The translations under genes were made by a program, and so were the position numbers. Shown here one piece after another: positions 27,996 through 33,520 of a stretch of DNA of 41,936 nt (position 1 is its first letter; every line of letters begins with the position of its first letter). This stretch comes from Flavobacterium sp. (lineage in GTDB: Bacteria > Bacteroidota > Bacteroidia > Flavobacteriales > Flavobacteriaceae). The notes under the pieces were generated by a model. That model was given only the letters and a program-made list of their open reading frames with translations. It had not been told where the DNA came from and searched no databases. The DNA lies in the NCBI GenBank assembly GCA_030145825.1, contig JAIXHM010000003.1, positions 1 through 41,936 of the forward strand. Reading direction: 5' to 3'.

Positions 27996-28050
27996 AAGGT
28001 AGGGATTATGAATTCAGGTCTATATCCTTCGATAATCGTAAACCTACCTT
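27996..28050 (-). promoter_or_regulatory. Structured rpsK-rpsD spacer, candidate S4 leader RNA
   Basis: Outer perfect 8-bp stem AAGGTAGG / CCTACCTT (27996-28003 / 28043-28050), inner GATTA / TAATC (28004-28008 / 28033-28037), further GAA / TTC. Confidence 0.5.
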
Positions 28051-29188: not shown

Positions 29189-30532
29189 TTAAGCTACTGC
29201 CTTTCTATTTTTACCACTTTTCATCAAACCATCATAATGTCTATTCAATAAATATGAATTTATTTGCTGAATAGTATCAATTGCAACTCCAACCATAATT
29301 AACAAAGAAGTTCCACCATAGAAATAACCCCATGCTCCTTGAACGTTTAATAAGCTTACCACTATTGCAGGTAATATTGCTATTAAAGCTAAGAATAATG
29401 AACCAGGGAAAGTAATTAAAGACATTAACTTATCTAAATAATCACTTGTCTCAACACCTGGTCTAACGCCTGGGATAAAACCACCACTTCTCTTTAAATC
29501 GTCAGCCATTTTGTTTGTTGGTACAGTAATTGCGGTGTAAAAATACGTAAAAATAACGATTAATAAACCAAACACTATATTATAAACCAATCCAAATGGA
29601 TTGTTAAACATTGTTGTTAACGATTGAGCCGTTTCAGATTCTTTAGCAAAACCTGAAATTGCAGCTGGAATAAACATGATAGCTTGTGCGAAAATGATTG
29701 GCATAACTCCAGAAGCATTTAACTTCAACGGAATAAATTGTCTTGCACCATCTTGCTCAAAATCTCCAGAAACTGTTCTTCTTGCATATTGTACAGGCAC
29801 TTTACGCACTGCCATTACTAATAATATAGATGTAATAATTACTAAGAACCATAAGATTACTTCAATAATTATCATCATTGCTCCACCACCAACTTCTTGA
29901 GATGTTCTTGACATCACCTCTTGAATAAAGGCCTGTGGCATTCTAGCAATAATACCTACCATGATCAATAATGAAATACCATTACCAATACCTTTATCAG
30001 TAATTTTTTCACCTAACCACATTGCAAAAATAGTTCCTGTAACTAAAATTAAAACAGAAGAAAACAAGAATGCAAACGAGCTAAACCCTAATAAAAAAGC
30101 ATCACTTGGTAGTGTTCTATACAAGTTATAGATATAACCTGGCCCTTGAACTAGAGTAATTAAGATAGTTAACCATCTTGTAATTTGGTTGATTTTTTTT
30201 CTACCGCTTTCTCCATCACTTTGTAATTTTTGCAAATAAGGAATTGCAATTCCCATTAACTGAACTACAATCGATGCAGAAATGTATGGCATAATACCTA
30301 AAGCAAATACAGAGGCTTGCGAAAACGCGCCCCCTGTAAATACATTTATTAACCATCCGATACCACCTTCTGTTTGATTAGTAAGATTTCCTAATTTAGT
30401 AGCATCAATACCTGGAAGTGTTACTTGCGCACCAAAACGATACACTAATAACAAACCTAGAGTTAATAAAATTCTATTTTTTAACTCTTCAATTTTCCAA
30501 ACATTGATAAAAGAATCTATAAATTTCTTCAT
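29189..30532 (-). CDS. secY: Preprotein translocase subunit SecY
   Basis: [57 protein letters not shown]. Confidence 0.98.
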
Positions 30533-30545
30533 GTTACTAAAAGGA

Positions 30546-30998
30546 TTATAATGTTACAACTTCTCCTCCAGCAGCTTCTATAGCAGCTTTTGCAGACGCA
30601 GTAAACTTGTGAGCACTTACTTTAAGTTTAGCTTTTAGCTCACCTCTTCCTAAAATCTTTACTAAGCTATTTTTTGTAGCTAAACGATTCTCTACTAACA
30701 CGTTGAAGTCAACTGTATCAGTAACTAAACCATTGTCTACTAACAATTGTAATGTATCTAAGTTTACACCTTGATACTCAACTCTATTTATATTTTTAAA
30801 TCCAAACTTAGGTACACGTCTTTGAAGTGGCATTTGACCTCCTTCAAAACCAATTTTCTTAGAATAACCAGAACGTGACTTAGCTCCTTTGTGACCTCTT
30901 GTTGAAGTACCACCTTTACCAGAACCTTGTCCTCTACCTACTCTTTTATTTTGGTTGTGAACTGAACCTTCAGCTGGCTGTAAGTTACTTAAATTCAT
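30546..30998 (-). CDS. rplO: 50S ribosomal protein L15
   Basis: MNLSNLQPAEGSVHNQNKRVGRGQGSGKGGTSTRGHKGAKSRSGY. Confidence 0.99.
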   Translation of the reverse strand: MNLSNLQPAEGSVHNQNKRVGRGQGSGKGGTSTRGHKGAKSRSGYSKKIGFEGGQMPLQRRVPKFGFKNINRVEYQGVNLDTLQLLVDNGLVTDTVDFNVLVENRLATKNSLVKILGRGELKAKLKVSAHKFTASAKAAIEAAGGEVVTL

Positions 30999-31009
30999 AA
31001 CGAAAATTA

Positions 31010-31192
31010 TTATTTAGTTTCTTCTACAGAAACTAAGTGTTTAACTTTATTTACCATTCCAAGGACTGCAGGACTTGCGTCATGCTCAACAACTCGTCCT
31101 AATTTTCTTAACCCTAAAGAATCTAAAGTTCTTTTTTGGGTTTCTGGACAGTTAATTCTACTTTTAACTTGTTTTACTAAAATTTTTGCCAT
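31010..31192 (-). CDS. rpmD: 50S ribosomal protein L30
   Basis: KILVKQVKSRINCPETQKRTLDSLGLRKLGRVVEH. Confidence 0.98.
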   Translation of the reverse strand: MAKILVKQVKSRINCPETQKRTLDSLGLRKLGRVVEHDASPAVLGMVNKVKHLVSVEETK

Positions 31193-31206
31193 TTTCCTTG
31201 AATTTT

Positions 31207-31731
31207 TTATCCTTTAAATACTTTATCAAGAGAAACTCCTCTTTGTTTTGCAACAGTAGCAGCACTTCTCATTTGTAATAAAGCATCAAAAGTAGCTTTA
31301 ACAACGTTATGAGGGTTAGATGAGCCTTGAGATTTTGACAATACATCATGAATCCCAACTGACTCTAATACCGCACGCACAGCACCACCAGCAATTACTC
31401 CAGTACCGTGAGAAGCAGGCATTAAAAATACTCTAGCTCCACCAAACTTACCTTTTTGCTCATGAGGAACAGTAACACCACTCAAAGGAATTCTTACTAA
31501 ATTTTTCTTCGCATCTTCAACTGCCTTTGCAATTGCTTCAGAAACATCTTTCGATTTACCTAATCCGTGACCCACTACACCGTTTTCATCTCCTACTACA
31601 ACAATAGCAGAGAAACCAAATGCTCTACCACCCTTAGTAACCTTAGTAACACGATTTACACTAACCAAACGATCTTTTAACTCAAGACCTCCTGGTTTTA
31701 CTAGTTCTACATTTTTATAATTTTGATACAT
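31207..31731 (-). CDS. rpsE: 30S ribosomal protein S5
   Basis: [50 protein letters not shown]. Confidence 0.99.
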
Positions 31732-31737
31732 AACTTC

Positions 31738-32088
31738 TTAGAATTTTAATCCAGCTTCTCTAGCGCCTTCAGCTAATGATTTAACACGTCCATGGTATAA
31801 ATTACCTCCTCTATCAAAAGAGATTTCAGATATACCTGCTTTAAGAGCTCTTTCAGCTACTAATTTACCTACTGCTGATGCAGTTTCAGTTTTTGTACCT
31901 TTTGCTACTTCTTTTTCACGAGAAGATGCAGAAACTAATGTAACACCGTTTACATCATCTATGATTTGCGCATAGATTTCTTTATTAGATCTAAAGACAG
32001 AAAGTCTAGGTTGAGAAGCAGTACCGCTTACAATCTTTCTTATTCTGAACTTAATTCTTTGTCTTCTTTCAGTTTTTGTTAATGACAT
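31738..32088 (-). CDS. rplR: 50S ribosomal protein L18
   Basis: [31 protein letters not shown]...[26 protein letters not shown]. Confidence 0.99.
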
Positions 32089-32099
32089 AACCTTAATTT

Positions 32100-32642
32100 T
32101 TAAGCTGATTTACCTGCTTTTCTTCTTAATTCTTCACCAACAAACTTAATTCCTTTTCCTTTATAAGGTTCAGGCTTACGGAAAGATCTGATTTTTGCAG
32201 TTACCTGTCCTAATAATTGTTTGTCAAATGATGATAATTTCACTATTGGGTTTTTCCCTTTTTCAGAGATAGTTTCTACCGTTACTTCTGGCACAACTTC
32301 AAGAACTATGTTGTGAGAATAACCTAATGCTAAATCAAGTTTTTGTCCTTGATTAGAAGCACGGTAACCAACACCTACTAATTCTAATTGTTTAGTAAAA
32401 CCTTCAGAAACCCCAACCACCATATTGTTGATTAGAGCACGATATAACCCATGTTTCGCTCTCTCAACTTTATTATCTGATGAACGTTCAACAACCACTT
32501 GATTGTCTTCAACTTTAACCGTTACATCAGAAAATTCTTGAGAAAGCTCGCCTAATTTTCCTTTTACTGTAACTACAGCATCTTTCACTTCTACAGTTAC
32601 TCCTGCTGGAATTGCAATTGGATTTTTACCTATTCTTGACAT
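32100..32642 (-). CDS. rplF: 50S ribosomal protein L6
   Basis: [19 protein letters not shown]...[23 protein letters not shown]. Confidence 0.99.
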
Positions 32643-32657: not shown

Positions 32658-33056
32658 TTAATATACGTAACAAATTACTTCTCCACCAACATTAAGTTGT
32701 TTTGCTTGTTTTCCCGTCATAACACCTTTTGATGTAGAAACAATAGCACAACCTAAACCATTTAAAATTCTTGGTAAGTTAGAAGAGCTAGCATATTTAC
32801 GTAAACCTGGTTTACTAATTCTTTGGATATCTCTAATTACAGACTCTTTAGTTTCTTTATCATACTTAAGAGCGATTTTAATAGTACCTTGCACACTATT
32901 ATCTTCGAATTTGTAACTCAAGATATAACCTTGATCGAATAAAATTTTTGTAATTTCCTTTTTTAAATTAGATGCAGGAATTTCAACAACTTTGTGTTGA
33001 GCTCTAGATGCATTTCTAACTCTTGTAAGAAAATCTGCAATTGGATCTGTATACAT
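32658..33056 (-). CDS. rpsH: 30S ribosomal protein S8
   Basis: [35 protein letters not shown]. The ATG at 33056 is chosen; the track extends to a TTG at 33116 through structured leader sequence. Confidence 0.97.
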
Positions 33057-33144
33057 ATTAAACAATTTGCGGTTCCGGTTTTCAAGAGGCAACCCACTCC
33101 TTGAACCTAAAACCAATTAATTTCAAATTTATATTTACTCCTAT

Positions 33145-33184
33145 AAGCCGCAATAGCACTCTTTTTAGAGCACTTTTGCGACTT
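33145..33184 (-). promoter_or_regulatory. Long hairpin in the rpsN-rpsH gap, candidate rpsH leader RNA element
   Basis: Minus strand AAGUCGCAA-A-AGUGCUCU-aaaa-AGAGUGCU-A-UUGCGGCUU: 17 pairs (3 G-U) around one A/A mismatch. Confidence 0.6.
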
Positions 33185-33213
33185 ACAAGAATACTTTTCA
33201 AACAAAAAGTGTG

Positions 33214-33244
33214 CAAATGTACACTTTTTATTTATAATAACAAA
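33214..33244 (-). promoter_or_regulatory. Candidate internal promoter for rpsH and downstream spc genes
   Basis: Minus strand TTTG (33244-33241), 19-nt spacer, TACATTTG (33221-33214): full match to the Bacteroidota -33 TTTG / -7 TAnnTTTG pattern. Confidence 0.6.
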
Positions 33245-33250
33245 TTTTTC

Positions 33251-33520
33251 TTACCAGCTTGATTTTTTAACACCTGGAATTAATCCTTGGTTAGCCATCT
33301 CACGGAATGTTACACGTGAAATACCAAATTGACGCATGTAACCTCTTGGTCTTCCTGTTAATTTACAACGATTGTGTAAACGTACAGGTGAACCATTTTT
33401 AGGTAATTTCTGTAATGCTTCATAATCTCCAGCTTCTTTTAAAGCTTTTCTTTTTTCAGCATATTTAGCTACTAGCGCTTCTCTTTTAGCCTCACGGGCT
33501 TTCATAGATTCTTTAGCCAT
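33251..33520 (-). CDS. rpsN: 30S ribosomal protein S14 (long, zinc-independent form)
   Basis: [40 protein letters not shown]...[40 protein letters not shown]. Confidence 0.98.

Follow-up and report, generated by a model that had tools for sequence, protein, structure and literature searches.

The gap between rpsN and rpsH very probably carries an autogenous leader for ribosomal protein S8. As read from the sequence of the window (the whole 41,936-nt stretch of Flavobacterium DNA analysed here), an S8-bound hairpin would block initiation on rpsH, and the genes downstream would follow through spacing or coupling. The hairpin is a conserved structure with compensatory changes, it is found almost exclusively before rpsH, and it matches the S8 site of 16S rRNA at all S8-essential positions; S8 binding and the repression step are what we infer.

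The gap measures 194 nt (33057-33250), as the earlier note had claimed. It is flanked by the genes of S14 (33251-33520) and S8, both on the minus strand, where the gene order is ...rplE, rpsN, gap, rpsH, rplF, rplR, rpsE, rpmD, rplO, secY... (NCBIfam equivalogs). A second rpsH of the assembly (G000:C196:4057-4446), 47% identical, probably lies on a contaminating contig.

Structure and covariation of the hairpin next to rpsH

In 58 loci of the genus and family, the sequence upstream of about -60 is variable or missing, and a hairpin recurs directly before the ATG. It has six pairs, an unpaired A, GG/CC, an upper stem starting with UU(C/U) and an AA bulge on the 3' side; about 14 nt, usually containing GCAAAT, separate it from the ATG. 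In the window, this hairpin is the only conserved part of the gap. It had been noticed as an imperfect stem at about 33073-33107: the stem is real, and its extent had been drawn too small, the actual limits being 33071 and 33114. From its base upwards, a lower helix of 6 bp is followed by an unpaired A, two pairs, a bulge of 2 nt in the 3' strand and finally the upper stem (Table 1), and a thermodynamic fold of the window sequence alone yields the same topology as the conserved one. The match of covariance model R1 to the leader in its own genome spans 33064-33119, with an E-value of 2.3e-17.

Most of the six pairs of the lower helix show compensatory changes; the outermost G-C is invariant and the innermost pair is often open. 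Above the pair 598:640 (16S numbering of the corresponding positions), the upper stem is free in sequence and length, with pairing kept. An AATT...AATT extension of the lower helix was rejected because of mismatches in several relatives.

The earlier note had proposed covariance analysis of this gap in related Flavobacteriaceae, and the resulting signal is strong: among 92 aligned sequences, 13 of the 16 pairs vary in both partners and still pair. Covariation scores 0.454 here, compared with 0.160 ± 0.009 for shuffled data; sliding the partners gives no more than 0.118. Relatedness is removed by the slid control and retained by the shuffle control. This alignment was fitted to the covariance model, and two of its rows (L088, L089) are false members. 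An independent MAFFT alignment gives the same covariation result, as does a second independent alignment that includes the most divergent members. The helices on both sides of the S8-like core are thus supported by covariation.

Table 1 Features of the rpsN-rpsH gap and the downstream genes; "~" marks corresponding 16S positions
Feature	Position	Strand	Remarks
rpsH, ribosomal protein S8	32658..33056	-	NCBIfam PRK00136, E 5.5e-54; proposed ligand and first regulated gene
rplF, rplR, rpsE, rpmD, rplO, secY	29189..32642	-	NCBIfam equivalogs, short gaps; likely under the same control (co-control inferred)
Putative S8-site hairpin (leader core), GGTTTT A GG TTCAAGGAGTGGGTTGCCTCTTGAA AA CC GGAACC	33071..33114	-	Compensatory changes, 92 aligned sequences
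Lower helix, 5' strand, ~589-594	33109..33114	-	Pairs with 33071-33076
Lower helix, 3' strand, ~645-650	33071..33076	-	Ends 14 nt before the rpsH ATG
Unpaired A, ~A595	33108..33108	-	A in 92/92 leaders; A595 in 24/24 distinct 16S helices 21
GG, with CC at 33077-33078, ~pairs 596:644 and 597:643	33106..33107	-	G-C at 597:643 in all true members
3' bulge AA, ~641 and A642	33079..33080	-	A642 in 92/92; 641 is A in 90, U in 2
Upper stem-loop, first pair ~U598:A640	33081..33105	-	U-A at 598:640 in all
14-nt spacer GCAAATTGTTTAAT, hairpin to ATG	33057..33070	-	Conserved GCAAAT
Bacteroidota promoter pattern TTTG-N19-TACATTTG	33214..33244	-	Exact match
9-bp inverted repeat around the -7 element	33204..33229	-	Perfect; analogues in L014, L017, L018, L024, L025
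Strong hairpin, core 33145-33184	33136..33193	-	Folded; accessory, not conserved

Resemblance of the core to the S8 site of 16S helix 21

The primary S8 site on helix 21 of 16S rRNA is made up of A642, the (G597-C643)-641 triple and A595-(596-644) (PMC4176348); by our reading, the pair U598-A640 lies above these elements. The 16S gene is absent from this assembly, and the comparison was made with 24 distinct Bacteroidota 16S sequences from relatives. Their core positions read AAGUC/GAUACU, and counting back from 685 in the E. coli manner puts the A at 595; in the same topology, the leader core reads AGGUU/AAAACC. Six nucleotides, A595, G597, U598, A640, A642 and C643, are the same in leader and rRNA and invariant in true members, and the differences amount to two base pairs swapped as pairs, plus A at 641.

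Both RNAs share the lower helix, A595, the pair 596:644, G597-C643, the 641/A642 bulge, U598-A640 and the upper helix, whereas in the leader 596:644 is mostly G-C, 599:639 mostly U-A and 641 mostly A, and the upper stem is shorter. Rare leaders carry the rRNA letters at exactly these places: A596-U644 in L043 and L058, U641 in L018 and L087, and C599-G639 in L118 and L185; two others (L045, L056) have an A.C mismatch at 596:644. The determinants of the S8 site are thus present by sequence: G597-C643 together with a base at 641 capable of forming the triple (A or U), the triple itself being invisible in sequence, and both A642 and A595 in all 92 rows, A595 lying beside the 596:644 pair.

An S8-like core appears by loose rules in 53 of 5000 shuffled gaps (about 1%), so the case for S8 rests on the invariance of the core and its gene context, not on its presence in a single sequence. 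A model built from the leaders alone does not pick out 16S helix 21 by score; the mimicry is therefore one of the core, not of overall similarity.

Distribution of the putative leader

The covariance model finds 104 matches in 151 Flavobacteriaceae genomes, and in all 101 that are linked to rpsH the model ends 6-9 nt before the ATG. The three off-site matches (G192, G134, G097) lie away from rpsH and have weak E-values, from 2e-4 to 3e-3. Divergent copies, missed by fast filters, occur in three more genomes (L104, L110, L118), so that the leader precedes rpsH in 104 of the 143 family genomes that have this gene, and is present in 45 of the 49 genomes of the window's genus. In about a quarter of the family it is missing: the element is thus dispensable. 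The gap there is mostly 10-25 nt long, which makes the leader either present or cleanly absent. Clean absences with a gap of about 20 nt are scattered over the genus (L008, L011, L013, L134) and the family (L052, L053 and others), and suggest repeated loss.

A scan of 84,980 species genomes with the exact pattern returned at least 119 matches; among the matches listed, 117 stand directly before rpsH, one is truncated by a contig end just past the ATG and one is a chance match. Outside the family, the models find almost nothing convincing in the order and phylum samples; the weak matches L088 and L089 in other families have no rpsH downstream and are due to chance. Direct reading of rpsN-rpsH gaps reveals the same S8-like core, with other helix sequences, in both sampled members (L185, L415) of another family of the class.

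Other hairpins stand before rpsH as well. In L415, about 60-140 nt before the gene, a promoter-like TACTTTTGC comes first, then a perfect hairpin and eight Ts, then the S8 core, an order like that of a terminator or attenuator. In another family of the order (L181, L210, L212), what precedes rpsH is a 9-bp hairpin and then a T run; the S8 core is lacking there. Yet another conserved hairpin, UAUAAUUA-stem-UAA(C/G)AUAUAAA, occupies the last 30-50 nt before rpsH in eight other members of the class (L188, L189, L191, L192, L201, L202, L417, L419). The same topology can be drawn for it if 597/643 is taken as U.C or U.G; it has no Rfam match in those searched, and is possibly a third S8 leader.

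Promoter pattern and structures upstream of the hairpin

The promoter pattern claimed in the earlier note is exact, with TTTG, a 19-nt spacer and TANNTTTG at 33244-33214; among 3000 dinucleotide-shuffled versions of the gap, 35 contain a looser form, TTTG-N17-21-TANNTTTG. Upstream of the leader, a TANNTTTGC element is found in about 22 of the 49 genus genomes: 16 members have TTGG-N19-TACTTTTG, with TTGG overlapping the rpsN end, and TACATTTG or TAAGTTTG, set within inverted repeats, occurs in the window and five other members. A promoter before the leader is thus recurrent, not universal; from its sequence it is plausible, but accessory.

The 9-bp inverted repeat is present as described and perfect, and only marginally unusual (7 of 300 shuffles are as good). 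In the window and in the five members with analogues, the -7 element lies within the repeat, and the hairpin would consequently form in read-through RNA, not in RNA started there. The 40-nt hairpin at 33145-33184 is also present and very stable; extended to 33136-33193, it reaches about 26 pairs. Taken from the predicted start down to the ATG, the fold has -50 kcal/mol (z = -6.7), and none of 200 shuffles is as low. As a candidate for the leader, the 40-nt hairpin was rejected: it is absent from the examined relatives and single-copy in its own genome.

The earlier suggestion that the gap is a start-and-regulate point, perhaps with a leader for S8 or another r-protein, gains support from the covariation and the S8-site core. 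What needs correcting is the place: the regulatory part would be the stem next to rpsH, the one element that is conserved, rather than the promoter with the inverted repeat or the 40-nt hairpin.

A model of S8 autoregulation and its alternatives

We propose that the hairpin is a mimic of the core to which S8 binds in 16S helix 21, so that S8 in excess over 16S rRNA would bind the hairpin on its own message. Bound S8 would lock the hairpin, which occupies the upstream half of the zone where ribosomes land, and block initiation on rpsH, and the block may spread to rplF-rplR-rpsE-rpmD-rplO-secY through close spacing or coupling. Flavobacterium initiates translation without Shine-Dalgarno pairing, and RNA structure between -20 and +20 tunes initiation in F. 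johnsoniae (PMC6847099). With the base of the hairpin at -15 relative to the rpsH start, the S8-locked form should get in the way at the upstream margin of this zone. For many species, the leader is simply intercistronic; in this genome and roughly half the genus, where a promoter pattern stands upstream, the leader could double as a 5' UTR.

Alternatively, the ligand could be another protein of the operon (S5, L6, L18, L15, L30 or S14), the likeness to the S8 site having arisen by chance. A polycistronic r-leader often binds something other than the product of the adjacent gene (PMC7247131), but here that gene encodes the known E. coli repressor of the operon (PMC10931766), and the S8-essential positions are invariant with variants shifting to rRNA letters; from an rRNA comparison that covers the S8 site, we regard such a leader as improbable. 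The hairpin might also act without any protein, as a determinant of RNA processing or stability or by tuning initiation, and so insulate rpsH from rpsN. Such a role would fit the unrelated hairpins that often share the gap, and the effect of start-codon-proximal structure on initiation in F. johnsoniae (PMC6847099), yet it would have no need for a 5' A that never changes, an AA bulge on the 3' side that almost never does, or unvarying G-C and U-A pairs amid freely changing helices, which makes it quite improbable. That a regulated internal promoter is the main feature, as the earlier note had emphasized, with the RNA structures incidental, is most improbable: in its favour are the exact pattern in the window and the presence of the element in about 22 of the 49 genomes of the genus, but the leader occurs without such an element in about half of the genus and in many other genera, often in gaps of only 59-78 nt.

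If S8 is indeed the ligand, the hairpin would be a concrete candidate operator for a large family that initiates without Shine-Dalgarno pairing, and its homologues a natural set of putative S8-binding RNA variants.

Comparison with known systems

In Rfam 15, the gap has no match above the gathering score, and up to E 10 only unrelated hairpin models appear, far below their cut-offs; seven relatives likewise give no match. The leader is the same kind of element as the r-leaders of Eckert & Weinberg 2020, which were found by conservation upstream of r-protein genes; none of the 20 tabulated there is for S8 (PMC7247131). By its anatomy this would be an S8 leader, and we found no earlier description of one for this large bacterial group in the open literature, although it may exist elsewhere. 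The S4-Flavobacteria r-leader RF03141 is likewise a hairpin r-leader of the same lineage and stands in the same window (28004-28037), which places two r-leaders within one r-protein cluster. Unlike the rpsH leader, it stands before rpsD and, according to its description, does not mimic rRNA (PMC7247131).

The closest parallel is the E. coli spc operon, of which S8 is the repressor (PMC10931766). Its S8 operator, at the rplX/rplE junction of the same operon, is also an mRNA mimic of the helix 21 core. Read directly, it has GAAACU at +6 and AAGUC at +80 of rplE, which fits the triple A+80-(A+81-U+11) published for it (PMC4176348), so that A at 641 is natural in an mRNA site for S8. A641, A642, C643, G597, U598 and A595 are identical in the leader and the E. 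coli operator. However, the strands of the E. coli operator come in the opposite, permuted order and overlap the rplE start, whereas the Flavobacteriaceae leader keeps the rRNA strand order and forms a single compact hairpin ahead of rpsH itself. We accordingly rejected an E. coli-type operator at rplE for the present element: the site is at rpsH, with its strands in rRNA order.

The chances are about even that S8 autocontrol was invented more than once in this operon: Flavobacteriaceae and another family of the class would have a helix 21 mimic at rpsH, gammaproteobacteria one with permuted strands at rplE, and Bacteroidales-like members of the class perhaps a third hairpin before rpsH. If so, control of the spc operon by S8 would have recurred across bacteria through RNA mimics that arose by convergence. 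The comparison suggests one regulatory idea invented repeatedly.
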